Below, piece after piece: positions 1,773-8,017 of a stretch of 51,252 nucleotides of DNA. Made by a program: the position numbers and the translations under genes. The DNA lies in contig CAIZMB010000191.1 in NCBI GenBank assembly GCA_903933935.1, positions 1-51,252 of the forward strand, read 5' to 3'. The notes beneath the pieces were generated by a model. The model saw only the letters and a program-made list of their open reading frames with translations, was not told the DNA's origin and searched no databases. This stretch comes from an uncultured Cytophagaceae bacterium. Its GTDB lineage: Bacteria; Bacteroidota; Bacteroidia; Cytophagales; Spirosomataceae. Position 1 is the first letter of the stretch; the number at the start of each line of letters is the position of its first letter.

Positions 1773-2975
1773 TTACGGGTTCAATTTTAATTTTTCTTGG
1801 TATGTCGCCAAATCCTTATCGCCTCTTCCTGATAAATTTACAACCGAAATTTCATTTGGCTTAGCTCCTAATTTTCCAAATACCGCAAGCGCATGCGCGG
1901 TTTCCAATGCTGGGATAATCCCCTCAAGCATTGAGCATTCTAGGGCAGCCTTCAAAGCTTCATCATCTGTAATATCAAAAAACTTCGCTCGGCCAGATGT
2001 TGCCAAATGAGCATGCAAAGGCCCAATTCCTGGATAATCCAAACCAGCGGAAATCGAATAAGGCTCAATCACTTGGCCATCTTCCGTTTGCATCAATAAG
2101 CTTTTGGATCCATGCAAAACACCCGGTTTTCCTAAAAAAGTAGTGGCAGCTGAATGTCCACTGGATACTCCTTGGCCTGCCGCCTCCGCAGCAATTAAAG
2201 CCGTTCGCGGTTCATCCAAATAATGATAAAATGCTCCAGCGGCATTTGAACCACCTCCTACACAAGCCAATATATAATCTGGATAGTCGCGCCCCTCTTT
2301 CTCTTGTAATTGCCATTTGATTTCCTCCGAAATAACGGATTGAAATTTGGCAACCATATCGGGATACGGATGCGGCCCCACCACGGAACCAATAATATAA
2401 TGTGTATCAACCGGATGATTAATCCAATGACGCATCGCCTCATTGGTCGCATCTTTTAACGTCTTTGAACCTGATTGCGCGGCAACAACAGTAGCTCCGA
2501 GCATTTTCATTCGAGCGACATTTGGCGCTTGACGCTCAATATCAATAGCTCCCATGTAAATGATACATTCCATTCCCATCAAAGCACAAACTGTGGCAGT
2601 TGCCACTCCATGCTGTCCAGCACCTGTTTCAGCTACTATCTTATTTTTGCCTAATCGCTTAGCCATCAAAATCTGACCTATCGTATTATTTACTTTATGA
2701 GCCCCCGTATGGCACAGGTCTTCCCTCTTCAAATAAATTTGGGTGTTGTATTTAGCCGACAATCGCTCCGCCTTAAACAAAGGGGTCGGTCGGCCCACAA
2801 AATCCTTCAATAAGAAATGAAATTCTTTTTGAAAGCTTGGTTCCATCATGTATTCCAAATAATGTAAACGCAATTCTTCTACATTGGGATACAACATTTC
2901 AGGGATAAAAGCACCCCCAAAATCACCATAATAACCCTTTTCACTGACATGAAAAGATATTCCTGCATCGATCAT
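1773..2975 (-). CDS. trpB: Tryptophan synthase beta subunit
   Basis: A 400-residue PLP enzyme that condenses indole and serine to tryptophan. The PLP lysine is Lys94 in [10 protein letters not shown]; the glycine-rich phosphate site GGGSNAAG and the [16 protein letters not shown] segment are present. Length is normal for TrpB1. Its ATG overlaps the stop of trpF by four bases (2972-2975), indicating translational coupling. It lies between trpF and trpA. Confidence 0.98.
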
Positions 2976-3583
2976 CTTTCAATTATTTTTGAAATATTTT
3001 TAACTTTTTCTATATCCTTAACTCCTGGCATTGACTCTAATTTACTGTTAAAATCAAGCGCATAGATAGGAAATTGCGCCGACAAAGATACCGCTTCCGC
3101 CACATTTTCCTCCCCCAATCCGCCTGCTAATATAAATGGAATTGACTTTTTATATGCCTGAAGCATCGTCCAATCAAAAGCCATTCCCGTTCCACCCACT
3201 TGTTCCCCCTTTTTCGTATCCAATAAAAATAAATCCGGCTCCCCCACACAGGCCAACAAATCATTTTCATTGCTCACAGAAATAGCCTTGATCACCTTAA
3301 GTCCCAAAGACTTTAATTTCAATATATCATTGGCCGATTCCTGACCATGCAATTGAACCCATTCAAAACTAGCTTTTCTTGCCAGATCAGCAATTTTCTC
3401 TACGGATGCGTCAACAAAAACCCCAACGGCCTTCGTGGTTTTTGGCAATGCTGGAATTTTAAACTCTTCTCCCACATACCTGGGCGATTTTGAAGCCCAA
3501 ATAAATCCCATAAAGTCGGGCTCAAATGCAGCAACATCCTCAATATTTCCTAAATCTCGCATGCCACAAACCTTCCACTTCAT
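2972..3583 (-). CDS. trpF: Phosphoribosylanthranilate isomerase
   Basis: A 203-residue TIM barrel performing the Amadori rearrangement of N-(5-phosphoribosyl)anthranilate. The N-terminal KVCGMRD carries the catalytic cysteine (Cys6); the general-acid aspartate is in [15 protein letters not shown]; the phosphate site is [12 protein letters not shown]. Here TrpF is separate from TrpC rather than fused as in enterobacteria. It overlaps trpB by four bases and follows trpC by five. Confidence 0.96.
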
Positions 3584-3588
3584 CTTTC

Positions 3589-4371
3589 CTATTTTAAAAA
3601 TTCAGTTAAAGCTTCCCCAGGATTCGTCGTTTTCATAAAACTTTCGCCGATCAAAAACCCGCGATATCCATATGTTTTCAACTCCTTTATGATCTCTGCA
3701 CTCGAAATACAACTTTCAGAAACTTTCACAAATTGAGCCGGAATTTTATCCGCCAACACCATTGAGGCCTCCACGTTTTGCTCCGAAAAATTCTTCAAAT
3801 TTCGATTATTTACGCCCACAACCGAAATATAATCCCCCACGCTTCGATCCAATTCTTCTTGGTCATGAACTTCTAACAAAGTCTCCATGCCTAAAGAACG
3901 TGCTAAAGTTCCTAATGTTTTAATTTCCAAAGGACTCAACGCTGCAGCTATCAGCAAAACAACATCTGCACCCATTGATTTAGCTTCAATAATTTGATAC
4001 TCGTCAATCATAAAATCCTTGCGCAACAAAGGTGTTCCTGGATTCGTCTTTCTAGCTAATTCAAAATCTGCATAAGTACCTCCAAAAAAATGCTCATCCG
4101 TCAAGACAGATAAACAAGCAGCGCCAGCCTCCACATATCCCCTCGTCACTTCATCCACACCCATTCGGTCATTTATAATTCCTTTGGATGGCGACTTGCG
4201 TTTAAATTCAGCAATTATTCCCGTAGATGCGGGAGCAATTAATGACATTGATAAGGAATGACAAGAACGCGCAAAATAGCCTTGCTTCTCTAATTGAGAA
4301 ACAGATTTAGCCTTTTTGCTTAACGCAACCTCCTCCCTTTTTTTAACAATAATTTGATCTAAAATGCTCAT
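3589..4371 (-). CDS. trpC: Indole-3-glycerol phosphate synthase
   Basis: A 260-residue monofunctional TIM barrel that closes the indole ring. Seen: IIAEFKRKSPSKG (catalytic Lys), LLRKDFMIDEYQI, LLEVHDQEEL, VVGVNNRNLKNF and the C-terminal VSESCISS and FLIGESFMK phosphate-binding segments. It follows trpD across an 87-base gap that holds a REP-like hairpin, the only sizeable gap in the operon. Confidence 0.97.
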   Translation of the reverse strand: MSILDQIIVKKREEVALSKKAKSVSQLEKQGYFARSCHSLSMSLIAPASTGIIAEFKRKSPSKGIINDRMGVDEVTRGYVEAGAACLSVLTDEHFFGGTYADFELARKTNPGTPLLRKDFMIDEYQIIEAKSMGADVVLLIAAALSPLEIKTLGTLARSLGMETLLEVHDQEELDRSVGDYISVVGVNNRNLKNFSEQNVEASMVLADKIPAQFVKVSESCISSAEIIKELKTYGYRGFLIGESFMKTTNPGEALTEFLK

Positions 4372-4458: not shown

Positions 4459-5448
4459 TTAATCCATAATAAATTTCTTAAACGCCTGAAAAGCTCTACC
4501 ACTTTCCAGCGATTCCTTCGCCATTAAATACCCATCTTGAAAGCTTGCCGACTTTTCAGCCACCCATAATGCGGCACCTGCATTCGCCAAAACAGCTTGT
4601 GTTTGCGCAACCGTTCCCTCTCTTTGTAAAATCTTATATAACATTTTAGCTGATTCCTCGACATTTGCTCCGCCATGCAATTCCGATTGCTGAACCTTTG
4701 AACAGCCTAAATCGGACGGTTGGTACACTTTTTCTCCAGCATGAGTCGTCAAACGAAATGAAGAGGTCAACGAAATTTCATCATATCCATCCTCAGAATA
4801 AACAATTCCATATTTATTTTGGCTCTCCTTAAAAAAGCCGGCATATAATTCAAAAGCTGAAGGCGCATAGACACCGGTCAATTGCTTATGGACCCGAGCG
4901 GGGTTCAATAAAGGTCCCAATAAATTAAAAAACGTTTTCATCCCTAACTCCTTACGAATAGGCCCCACAAACCTCATAGCAGGATGAAACAAGGGCGCAT
5001 GTAAAAAACACATACCCGCAGAATCCATTTTACGTTTTAAAATTTTTGCATCACTATTGAATTTCAATCCCAAAAATTCCAAGACGGTCGACGAGCCCAC
5101 GGAAGAGGAGACGCCATGATTTCCATGCTTCGCAATTTTCTGGCCAGCACCCACAATAATAAAAGACGAAGTGGTACTAATATTGAAAGTGTCCTTCCCA
5201 TCACCCCCTGTTCCACAAACATCCATGGCATCAAATTCAGATAAATCAACCGTTACAGCCAATTCCATCATCGCCGATACAAACCCTTTTAGTTCTGCTA
5301 CCTGAATCGGATGATACCAATAAGATGATAAAAATGAAGCAATTTGACTTGGATTTATCTCGCCTTGCCCTATTTTCAACATAATATCCCCGGCCTCTTG
5401 TTCGCTAAGTGCCTCACCTTCAACACGTCTTTCTAATATTTTTTTCAT
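4459..5448 (-). CDS. trpD: Anthranilate phosphoribosyltransferase
   Basis: About 329 residues, normal for TrpD. It transfers phosphoribose from PRPP to anthranilate. The DVCGTGGDGKDTFNIST segment is the PRPP-binding signature, followed by KHGNHGVSSSVGS and the conserved FLHAPLFHPAMRFV, and RKELGMKTFFNLLGPLLNP. I place the start at the ATG at 5448, just past the trpG stop, rather than at 5463, because family members begin with a KKILERR-like helix and this removes an overlap of 13 bases. Confidence 0.95.
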   Translation of the reverse strand: MKKILERRVEGEALSEQEAGDIMLKIGQGEINPSQIASFLSSYWYHPIQVAELKGFVSAMMELAVTVDLSEFDAMDVCGTGGDGKDTFNISTTSSFIIVGAGQKIAKHGNHGVSSSVGSSTVLEFLGLKFNSDAKILKRKMDSAGMCFLHAPLFHPAMRFVGPIRKELGMKTFFNLLGPLLNPARVHKQLTGVYAPSAFELYAGFFKESQNKYGIVYSEDGYDEISLTSSFRLTTHAGEKVYQPSDLGCSKVQQSELHGGANVEESAKMLYKILQREGTVAQTQAVLANAGAALWVAEKSASFQDGYLMAKESLESGRAFQAFKKFIMD

Positions 5449-5450
5449 TT

Positions 5451-6014
5451 TTATTTCAACCAATTTTTAATCATTTGTAAACCATGTTGGGTCAAATAGG
5501 CCTCAGGGTGAAATTGAACCCCACGTACATCATACTTTTGATGTGCCTCGGCCATCACAAATCCTTTATCATCCACTGCCGTAATTTTTAAATCAGCAGG
5601 CATTGTTTCGGGTACAACCGTCCATGAATGATACCGACATACCTCAAAGCGCGATGGGATACCTTGGAATAATTTTTCGCTAGGATCCGTCACCACGCAT
5701 TCCGTAGTCACTCCATGCAATACCTCCCCCATATTTTGCAATTGAGACCCAAAGGCCTCGCCAATCGCCTGATGCCCCAAACAAACGCCTAATATTTTTT
5801 TGCTCGACTTATATTCCTTCAATAAATCCAACATGATTCCTGCTTCAGAGGGAATTCCAGGACCCGGCGAAAGTAAAATCTGATCATACGCAGCCACTTC
5901 CTCCAACGAAATTTTATCGTTGCGAAACACATCTACTTTGGCCCCCAGCTCCTTCAAAAGGTAAACTAGATTATAGACAAATGAATCATAATTATCAATC
6001 ACTAATACATTCAT
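5451..6014 (-). CDS. trpG: Anthranilate synthase component II (glutamine amidotransferase)
   Basis: A 187-residue class I glutamine amidotransferase that supplies ammonia to TrpE. The catalytic triad is visible: Cys78 in LGVCLGHQAIG, His169 and Glu171 in VQFHPEA. LLSPGPGIP forms the oxyanion loop. The protein may also serve as PabA for folate synthesis, since no separate pabA is in the window. It follows trpE by six bases. Confidence 0.95.
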   Translation of the reverse strand: MNVLVIDNYDSFVYNLVYLLKELGAKVDVFRNDKISLEEVAAYDQILLSPGPGIPSEAGIMLDLLKEYKSSKKILGVCLGHQAIGEAFGSQLQNMGEVLHGVTTECVVTDPSEKLFQGIPSRFEVCRYHSWTVVPETMPADLKITAVDDKGFVMAEAHQKYDVRGVQFHPEAYLTQHGLQMIKNWLK

Positions 6015-6020
6015 AATTCC

Positions 6021-7439
6021 TTAAGATAAAGTTTCCGCCACTTCTAATGCTCTGCGCAAAGCGGCCAATTTATTATGTATTTCCTGCATTTCACTGGCCA
6101 CCACTGATTTAGCCACTACACCCATTCCTGCTTGAAAAAACAAGGTTTCACCCTTGCTCAAAAATGTTCTTATCGCAATGGCATGATTGAAATTGCCTTC
6201 AAAATCCATGAAGCCAATCGCCCCACCATAAATGGCACGGTTGGTAGGTTCCAAGCGATTAATAATCGTCATCGCATTGTGTTTTGGCGCACCACTTAAA
6301 GTTCCCGCAGGAAAAGTATCGGCTACTAATTGGAGCGAATTAACCCCTTTTTGCATGCGTCCTGTTACTTTTGAAACCAAGTGAATAACATGAGAGAAAA
6401 ACTGAACCTCCTTGAAGGTTTCCACTTTTACATTTTCAGCACTCCTACTTAAATCATTTCTAGCTAAATCCACCAACATGACATGTTCGGCCGATTCTTT
6501 GGGATCAGCAATCAATGCCTGCGCTAATTCCGCATCACGCGCATCATCCCCAGAACGTCTAAATGTTCCGGCAATGGGGTGAATTTCAGCTAAATCACCG
6601 TCAATTTTAATTTGTTTCTCTGGTGAAGCACCAAAAATACGGTACTCTTCATAATCAAAGTAAAACAAATAAGGCGATGGATTCACGGAACGCAAAGCCC
6701 TATACACCTGAAAATCATCCCCTTGATAATTTAGACTAAATCTACGAGAAGGTACAATTTGAAATACATCCCCCCGCAAACAATGTTTTATACACGTTTG
6801 AACTATTTCCCGAGTTTGATCTTCGGTCAAATTACTAACTTCTTCCCCTTGGCGTTGAAATTTCCCCAAGGCTTCAGCAGGCTGATCAATGGCATCAAAA
6901 ATGGCATCAAAACTGGGTTCGCTTCCATCATAGGTATGCGAATAGTAGGCCAGTTGGTTGTTAAAGTGATTAAATGCCAACACATATCGGTAAACAAAAT
7001 AGCGAATGGATGGGATCTCCGTCTCCTTACTTTTGCCCCTCATCTCGATGTCTTCAAAATATTGAACCGCATCATACGATATATGGCCAAAAAGTCCGTT
7101 AGCCATGGGCGAATCCCCCGCCTCTTTTGAAAAAACAAAACGACCCGCAAAGTTTTTCAAAGCCATAATGGCTTGTTGGCGCGATGCCAACACAAACGTC
7201 TCTTCGGTTCCATCAGGAAATTTTTGAACAACCACCGACTGATCTAAGGTAAAACTTGCGATAGGTTCAAAGGCGATGTGAGAAAAACCGTGCTCACGAC
7301 CGTGGTAATCAGCGGATTCCAATATGACCGAGTTTTTGAAATTCTGCCGAATTTTAAGAAATAAACCAATGGGCGTCATCGTATCGGCCAAAAGCGTCTT
7401 TCTACTCGTTTTTAACTGTATATTTTGCGTCGTAGACAT
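6021..7439 (-). CDS. trpE: Anthranilate synthase component I
   Basis: About 472 residues from the ATG at 7439. It converts chorismate with ammonia from TrpG to anthranilate. The feedback-inhibition motif appears as ILES (residues 39-42), matching the LLES Trp-binding site; the chorismate-binding domain holds DVFQIVPSRRF, GASPEKQI, IAGTFRR, EHVMLVDLARND and FPAGTLSGAPKHNAM. An in-frame extension to 7535 exists, but it would run through the leader terminator hairpin and gives a hydrophobic tail foreign to the family, so I reject it. First gene of the trp operon, behind an attenuator-like leader. Confidence 0.96.
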   Translation of the reverse strand: MSTTQNIQLKTSRKTLLADTMTPIGLFLKIRQNFKNSVILESADYHGREHGFSHIAFEPIASFTLDQSVVVQKFPDGTEETFVLASRQQAIMALKNFAGRFVFSKEAGDSPMANGLFGHISYDAVQYFEDIEMRGKSKETEIPSIRYFVYRYVLAFNHFNNQLAYYSHTYDGSEPSFDAIFDAIDQPAEALGKFQRQGEEVSNLTEDQTREIVQTCIKHCLRGDVFQIVPSRRFSLNYQGDDFQVYRALRSVNPSPYLFYFDYEEYRIFGASPEKQIKIDGDLAEIHPIAGTFRRSGDDARDAELAQALIADPKESAEHVMLVDLARNDLSRSAENVKVETFKEVQFFSHVIHLVSKVTGRMQKGVNSLQLVADTFPAGTLSGAPKHNAMTIINRLEPTNRAIYGGAIGFMDFEGNFNHAIAIRTFLSKGETLFFQAGMGVVAKSVVASEMQEIHNKLAALRRALEVAETLS

Positions 7440-7463
7440 GTTTATAAATTGAATACAAATTAA

Positions 7464-7496
7464 TAAAAAAAGGCTTACTGAGAACAGCAAGCCTTT
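7464..7496 (-). terminator. trp leader terminator (attenuator)
   Basis: Minus-strand RNA: AAAGGCUUGCUG (7496-7485), loop UUCU, CAGUAAGCCUUU (7480-7469), then a U run: a 12-bp stem with one G-U pair and a poly-U tail, ending about 25 bases before the trpE ATG. Its 3' loop side CUGUUC (7487-7482) can alternatively pair with GAACAG (7533-7528) further upstream. Confidence 0.8.
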
Positions 7497-7527
7497 GTAA
7501 AACATATCATATGTGCACACAGCAAAA

Positions 7528-7551
7528 CTGTTCAAGGATTTGTTACCCTTG
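7528..7551 (-). promoter_or_regulatory. trp leader 1:2 hairpin and antiterminator strand
   Basis: On the minus strand CAAGG (7551-7547) can pair with CCUUG (7537-7533). CAAGG begins immediately after the single Trp codon of the leader peptide. The second strand continues into GAACAG, complementary to CUGUUC of the terminator. This is the 1:2, 2:3, 3:4 arrangement of ribosome-mediated attenuation, though the proposed 2:3 helix has only six perfect pairs. Confidence 0.55.
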
Positions 7552-7584
7552 CCAACCGTTTTTGTTGTATGCTGCTTTTATCAT
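7543..7584 (-). CDS. trpL: Putative trp leader peptide (13 aa)
   Basis: An ATG 10 bases past the expected transcription start opens a reading frame encoding MIKAAYNKNGWQG and a TAA stop. The single Trp codon (7554-7552) is followed directly by the strand CAAGG of the leader hairpin, so a ribosome stalled there would cover it. Only one Trp codon is present, fewer than the tandem codons of enterobacterial leaders. No strong Shine-Dalgarno is seen, as is usual in Bacteroidota. Role inferred from position. Confidence 0.55.
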   Translation of the reverse strand: MIKAAYNKNGWQG

Positions 7585-7600
7585 TTTGTTATAATTTTTA

Positions 7601-7629
7601 CAAATGTAAAATGAAATCTATTAAATCAA
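7601..7629 (-). promoter_or_regulatory. trp operon promoter
   Basis: Minus strand: TTG (7629-7627), 18-nt spacer, TACATTTG (7608-7601), a good TTG/TAnnTTTG pair. The predicted start near 7594 gives a leader of about 155 nt before trpE. Confidence 0.7.
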
Positions 7630-7633
7630 AACT

Positions 7634-8017
7634 TTAACCTATTAAATCCCATAAATTTCCATACAAGTCCTCGAAAACAAGGACTTTACCATATTCCTCC
7701 TCGGACGGTCCTCGTACGATTGTGATTCCTTTTTGAAGCAAATTATCATGGTCCCTTTCAAAATTATCCGTGTGTAAAAATAAAAATACACGCCCTCCTG
7801 TTTGATTTCCGACTCTCGATTTTTGTTCCTCTGTGGCAGCCTTTGCTAAAAGTAATTGGCAACTCCCCTCTCCAGGAGGTTGAATTAAAACCCAACGCTT
7901 TACCTCACTCAGTGTAGTGTCCTCGATTAAATGGAAGCCTAATTTTTGGGTATACCAAGCAATCGCTTCATCATAATCAGCGACCACCAAAGCAATATGC
8001 ATTAATTGTTGGTTCAT
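7634..8017 (-). CDS. VOC (glyoxalase/bleomycin-resistance fold) family protein
   Basis: A 127-residue single-domain protein with two beta-alpha-beta-beta-beta modules: an N-terminal HIALVVADYDEAIAWYTQKLGFHLIEDT and a C-terminal FEDLYGNLWDLIG. Candidate metal ligands are His7, a middle His (FLFLHTDN) and the terminal acidic residue region. Members include glyoxalases, dioxygenases and antibiotic-binding proteins; the substrate cannot be told from sequence. It follows purB by three bases on the same strand, so the two are probably cotranscribed. Confidence 0.88.
   Translation of the reverse strand: MNQQLMHIALVVADYDEAIAWYTQKLGFHLIEDTTLSEVKRWVLIQPPGEGSCQLLLAKAATEEQKSRVGNQTGGRVFLFLHTDNFERDHDNLLQKGITIVRGPSEEEYGKVLVFEDLYGNLWDLIG

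Follow-up and report, generated by a model that had tools for sequence, protein, structure and literature searches.

The trp operon and its leader

The window analysed here is the whole stretch of 51,252 nucleotides formed by positions 1 to 51,252 of contig CAIZMB010000191.1, from an uncultured Cytophagaceae bacterium. On its minus strand it carries seven genes in the order trpE-trpG-trpD-trpC-trpF-trpB-trpA. The best NCBIfam match of trpE (7439-6021, ATG at 7439), the first gene of the operon that the leader would control, is TIGR00564 trpE_most, at 409.7 bits, under its cut-off of 517.7; its name rests on this below-cut-off score and on the operon context. NCBIfam scores are over cut-off for trpG (5451-6014, TrpG/PabA subfamily), trpD (4459-5463), trpC (3589-4371), trpB (1773-2975) and trpA (992-1771), and below it for trpF (2972-3583). 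The identity of trpE relatives is 78-84% in named Aquirufa records and 93-98% in the nearest uncultured records; judged by these identities, the genome belongs to the genus Aquirufa, a member of Spirosomataceae.

Downstream of trpA, and in the same direction, lies an ORF (511-864) resembling, by eye, ribosomal protein L19. No terminator was found between the two, and the ORF may be cotranscribed with the trp genes. On its 3' side a strong terminator-like hairpin, AAAAGCTGTTCAGAAATGAACAGCTTTT (462-489), includes both CTGTTC and GAACAG.

Upstream of trpE, all parts of the leader are found inside 7464-7631 of the minus strand, in the order promoter-like site, short ORF, hairpin, terminator and trpE. 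Bacteroidota are known to initiate translation without Shine-Dalgarno sites and to have a promoter type of their own. The element TTTG (7630-7627), which we take to be the -33 part of a Bacteroidota-type promoter, is separated by an 18-nt spacer from the -7-like element TACATTTG (7608-7601). Transcription would start about 4-7 nt downstream of TACATTTG, giving a 5' UTR of about 10-13 nt. A sigma-70 promoter was rejected, 13 sites being found versus 9.5 expected by chance; the arrangement TTTG-18-TACATTTG fits better. The consensus promoter reported by the first-pass annotation is accordingly retained as a promoter-like site, though not as a sigma-70 consensus.

The leader ORF MIKAAYNKNGWQG (7584-7543) is composed of 13 codons plus UAA; as annotated at first pass, it encodes Trp only once, by the UGG at 7554-7552. 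The minimum-energy fold pairs 7572-7560 with 7527-7515, within a hairpin, P1 (7572-7515; pairs 7572-7566/7521-7515, 7564-7560/7527-7523, 7558/7528 and 7556-7554/7532-7530), which is tipped by a second helix, P2, CAAGGGU/AUCCUUG (7551-7545/7539-7533). The 5' strand of P2 begins directly after UGG, and the UAA stop codon starts at the last 5' base of P2 and extends into its loop. The CAAGG/CCUUG hairpin described earlier does start right after the Trp codon, but it is only the tip of this larger P1/P2 structure, whose outer helix P1 had been missed.

The intrinsic terminator, AAAGGCUUGCUG-UUCU-CAGUAAGCCUUU (7496-7469), has 12 pairs, one of them G-U, a UUCU loop and a following U-tract, and the earlier description of a 12-bp terminator with poly-U just before trpE holds. 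A strand complementary to it had also been proposed and is present: it is the antiterminator strand GAACAGU (segment 2, 7533-7527). Its partner had to be corrected to the loop-centred top of the terminator, GCUGUUC (segment 3, 7488-7482), which includes the upper 5' arm and three loop bases. The resulting helix is short, as anticipated, with seven pairs including one G-U. In the fold the GAACAG nucleotides are occupied by P2, GUU:AAC and C:G, with one A bulged, and P1/P2 is predicted to be a longer hairpin covering the whole antiterminator strand.

Upstream of its ATG, the reading frame of trpE stays open across the terminator as far as a TTG at 7535 (504 aa), similarly to what is seen in the relative L027; gene callers may therefore set the start of trpE inside the attenuator. 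Neither TrpR (PF01371) nor TRAP/mtrB (PF02081) was matched in the assembly, which is 98.87% complete, control searches being positive. A scan of the window for amino-acid runs before terminators revealed no second attenuator of the same kind.

Conservation of the leader among relatives

The comparison was based on 198 trpE upstream regions, from the window, its genus, family, order and class and from two genomes elsewhere in the phylum; they contain near-duplicates (one record present in two collections) and correspond to 147 distinct leader sequences and 122 distinct peptides. Starting from 156 genomes matching trpE, regions were taken from 65 that share the order or class of the window but not its family, and from 2 of the phylum; 33 additional family regions were hand-picked for spread. 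The distinct leaders are divided into a genus group of 25 (24 from the genus itself plus the neighbour L033), 50 of the family and 72 others. Regions with an incomplete trpE (L047, L048, L077, L093, L112, L115, L123, L126) or a masked upstream sequence (L107) were left out of the counts.

An in-frame ORF with WW, WxW or GWQG, located 30-85 nt ahead of an intrinsic terminator, was found in 182/198 regions, a lower bound because three of the 16 failing regions (L034, L106, L202) match the leader model, and under a test that misses any single-Trp leader other than GWQG. The same architecture was found in 0/990 dinucleotide shuffles and 0/198 opposite strands. The promoter motif TAnnTTTG lies no more than 70 nt from the leader ATG in 24/25 genus-group, 35/50 family and 55/72 other distinct leaders, versus 3-8% of shuffles; a passage of PMC6414381 cites it as a Bacteroidetes-specific consensus.

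A covariance model, R1, was built from the genus-group alignment, with the two 3'-terminal bases of L020 and of L021 cut off. R1 gave 36 strong matches, all at E 3.4e-21 or better, distributed over 35 of the 38 genomes of the genus, the 25 leaders used for training matching by construction; trpE-bearing genomes are likewise 35 out of 38. Thirteen more matches were weak (E 0.0014-0.092), some of them falling in terminators already matched, but on the reverse strand. On family and class leaders the model scored about 15-40 bits (85 loci scanned).

When the window sequence is folded by itself, the 130-nt piece 7441-7570 shows a z of -3.14 against dinucleotide shuffles, and the part preceding the terminator is 2.2 sd better. 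The evidence from the single sequence is modest; it is the comparison that is strong and that marks the leader as more than chance.

The 13-codon ORF is present in all of the 25 distinct genus-group leaders. Conservation of the Trp codon in relatives had been proposed as a check at first pass and is borne out, the UGG adjoining the hairpin being kept in 25/25. Two Trp codons (NWWQG) are found in 16 of these leaders and one (NGWQG) in 9, while three are typical elsewhere (44/50 family and 57/72 other leaders), and Trp runs occupy the same leader position across the class. Among the named species, A. antheringensis has two. A lone Trp codon among 13 is by itself not significant. In a tree of 41 TrpE rows, one change suffices for the single-Trp form; it comprises 11 rows, with support 90/70, and appears in 92% of 200 bootstrap trees. 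The single Trp codon of the window is thus a reduction, specific to this clade, from a leader with two, and not the sign of a chance ORF.

Some leaders depart from the common arrangement. Three distant Bacteroidota carry, before trpE, tandem complete WWW leaders with terminators (L111:1205-1461, L113:1214-1472, L118:257-479); the two of L118 have identical antiterminator letters, GAGAAGC:GCTTCTC. In genome G385 no leader was found in the 500 nt fetched upstream of trpE (L175), and a match to the Rfam family RF01692 (G385:C3:788912-789049, 78.1 bits) is separated on the upstream side by about 1.3 kb from the trpE match, which ends at 787655; this suggests that another gene stands between leader and trpE. 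The G021 assembly, with 3% contamination, contains two trpE matches and two leaders (G021:C34:4358-4471 and G021:C156:13752-13865), probably from two organisms in the bin.

Predicted antiterminator and sequestering hairpin

In the genus-group alignment, segments 2 and 3 are paired in 175/175 cells, with two wobble changes. The columns barely vary, which is to be read as conservation and not covariation. Other lineages keep the pairing with different letters (GGTTGAGCAGTA:TACTGTTCAACC, GTCGTGA:TCACGAC, GAGAAGC:GCTTCTC, GCTAAACGA:TCGTTTGGC and GGGATGA:TCATCCC), and it is from these changes that the apparent covariation of the antiterminator comes. Persistence of the pairing in relatives, the other check suggested at first pass, is thus observed both within the genus group and, with different letters, across lineages.

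The specificity of the pairing was evaluated by swapping arms among the 122 distinct peptides. Native antiterminators have an energy of -12.0 versus -7.4 for swapped ones, and 47/122 beat 95% of the swaps. For 103 distinct terminator tops, the native helix has a mean of 17.2 versus 12.0 when swapped, with at most 5% of swaps as good in 53/103. These tests, centred on the terminator top, replaced a first duplex-energy test, discarded as diluted, in which the whole 50 nt after Trp were paired with nearly the whole terminator and only 24/145 entries were at or below 5% of shuffles; even so, about half or more of the representatives miss the 5% mark. The antiterminator strand mostly starts 14-20 nt past the last Trp codon, and in most of the strong cases the centres of segment 3 and of the hairpin are no more than about 2 nt apart. 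A convincing antiterminator pair was not found in several lineages (e.g. L133, L161-L163).

For the window, the 7-pair match is not significant by itself, being equalled in 204 of 2000 sequences obtained by mononucleotide shuffling of the 45 nt that follow Trp. Against swapped terminators, 36% of the swaps are as good, a control that understates the window because CTGTTC is common to many of the swapped terminators.

The sequestering hairpin is also maintained. Paired cells in the genus-group alignment amount to 94.9% for P1, 85.1% for P2 and 99.7% for the terminator, P1 being scored with the inner pairs of NWWQG, one of which the NGWQG leaders (9/25) do not have. Two P1 pairs are changed on both sides, a result achieved by 17/500 shuffles. 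In the arm swap over the 122 distinct peptides, native and swapped energies are -11.8 and -8.5 kcal/mol for P1, and -7.0 and -3.9 kcal/mol for P2; at most 5% of the swaps are as strong as the native arms in 38/122 representatives for P1 and in 47/122 for P2.

Proposed mechanism and alternative explanations

From the arrangement of these elements and their conservation, the leader of the window very probably controls the trp operon by ribosome-mediated transcription attenuation, as the first-pass annotation had suggested; the architecture found in 182/198 regions and the UGG and pairing kept in relatives support this reading. With ample charged tRNA-Trp, the ribosome would pass UGG, reach the stop codon and leave; P1/P2 could then form and lock segment 2, so that the terminator would form and transcription end. 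With scarce charged tRNA-Trp, the ribosome would stall at UGG and mask the 5' strand of each of the two helices. Segment 2 (GAACAGU), thus freed, would capture the loop-centred top (GCUGUUC) of the emerging terminator, a pairing expected to delay or prevent the terminator and to let RNA polymerase continue into trpE. In the single-Trp clade, where Gly has replaced one of the two Trp codons, a weaker response than in relatives is expected.

The switch was followed in folding calculations, mimicking a stalled ribosome by masking everything through 10 nt after Trp. With the mask, P(antiterminator) is 0.99 for an RNA reaching 6 nt beyond the terminator centre and 0.58 for one that is four bases short of the complete terminator; without it, P(antiterminator) is 0.00 throughout. 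Once the terminator is complete, P(antiterminator) in the window is 0.00 at equilibrium even with the ribosome mask, and the antiterminator could therefore act only kinetically. That the antiterminator is short, and that the complete terminator wins the predicted equilibrium despite the stalled ribosome, is the main weakness of the model.

This loss at equilibrium is the reason for considering that the attenuator may have weakened, the terminator of the single-Trp clade being near-constitutive and letting a fixed fraction of polymerases pass with little response to Trp. We consider this unlikely. In its favour, only one Trp codon is left, and the finished terminator beats the 7-pair antiterminator, unlike in the Flectobacillus-like leader L035, where P(antiterminator) stays 0.99 to the end. 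However, the two-Trp relative L023, whose antiterminator is equally short, also loses the pairing at equilibrium. Moreover, the nine distinct single-Trp leaders all keep the Trp codon, GAACAG (in L004 GAACGG, wobble-paired) and CUGUUC, although the change from Trp to Gly cost CAG a P1 partner (columns 28/57, unpaired in 9/25).

The terminator might, alternatively, simply serve the upstream glyoxalase-like gene (7634-8017), without any regulatory role. This gene has the same direction, stops roughly 50 bases short of the leader ORF and is also the neighbour in the two relatives checked (L027, L012), but a promoter-like site stands between it and the leader ORF, and Trp ORF and terminator persist next to other neighbours, as in L213, where a 5S rRNA and a tRNA gene precede the leader (304-437); the explanation is very improbable. 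Hardly more credible is a TnaC-like arrest, in which the nascent peptide would sense free Trp instead of charged tRNA-Trp being read through the codon: the leader peptide is well conserved within the genus, but across families mainly the Trp run is common and the remaining peptide varies, and such an arrest would activate the genes at excess Trp, the wrong sign for a biosynthetic operon.

Relation to known leaders

Trp leader RNAs located before trp genes in Bacteroidota are described by the Rfam family RF01692; the leader of the window shares this setting and has a Trp ORF. Its table row, as Bacteroid-trp, in PMC2864571 (Weinberg et al. 2010) reports RNA 'y', cis-reg 'y', Switch 'n' and the taxon Bacteroidetes. 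The window aligns to this model over its full length (positions 1-131), including the terminator start AAAGGCUUG, with a score of 28.1 bits versus a gathering cut-off of 49; no match is obtained in the window at that cut-off, and the leader is therefore not filed as a member of RF01692. SNORA25, 6A and the L10 leader gave better Rfam E-values than RF01692 in the window, all far under their cut-offs, and were judged chance matches. An Arcicella leader of the same family (L084, 51.5 bits, the only RF01692 match among 20 sources) passes the cut-off, as do 10 out of 20 order and class leaders, and these ties connect the leaders described here to RF01692. Across class genomes, the cut-off is passed in just 5/149, under strict filters that lose weak matches. 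As aligned, the RF01692 model stops within the 5' arm of the terminator, and cannot hold the whole terminator or the antiterminator pairing.

Bacteroid-Trp RNA is also placed before the trp operon of Flavobacterium psychrophilum, a position equal to that of the leader in the window, and likened to E. coli attenuation, in an in silico remark within PMC6414381.

Compared with trpL of E. coli K-12 MG1655, the dimensions are nearly identical: from the ATG start to the end of the Trp run there are 33 nt in both, from Trp to terminator 54 nt versus 55 nt in the window, and both have, 14 nt downstream of Trp, a strand able to pair with the terminator. E. coli differs in having two Trp codons versus one, another promoter type, and its best contiguous helix in the 5' arm of the terminator (centre -7), whereas here segment 3 is centred near the loop (-2 to +2 in the majority of strong cases). 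RF00513, which we take to be the accession of the proteobacterial Trp_leader, is absent among the matches of the window up to E 10.

A broader proposal, to which we give about an even chance, is that a trp attenuator system, of which the leader of the window is one member, extends throughout the class Bacteroidia and is only partly covered by RF01692. Its antiterminator would act kinetically, seizing the terminator at its nucleation site, the loop and top, and not along the whole 5' arm. The strand that does so would lie mostly 14-20 nt beyond the final Trp codon, and a single Trp codon with seven base pairs could suffice. What may be new is the extension over the class, the centring of the antiterminator on the loop, and the clade with one Trp codon.

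The loop-centred antiterminator provides a testable pairing that is missing from the RF01692 model. For the number of Trp codons that an attenuator needs, nature offers a test in the single-Trp clade, which only one change separates from relatives with two. Ribosome-mediated attenuation requires a ribosome close behind RNA polymerase. Its occurrence before trpE in nearly every leader examined from Bacteroidia would argue, on genomic grounds, for the coupling of transcription and translation in the phylum.
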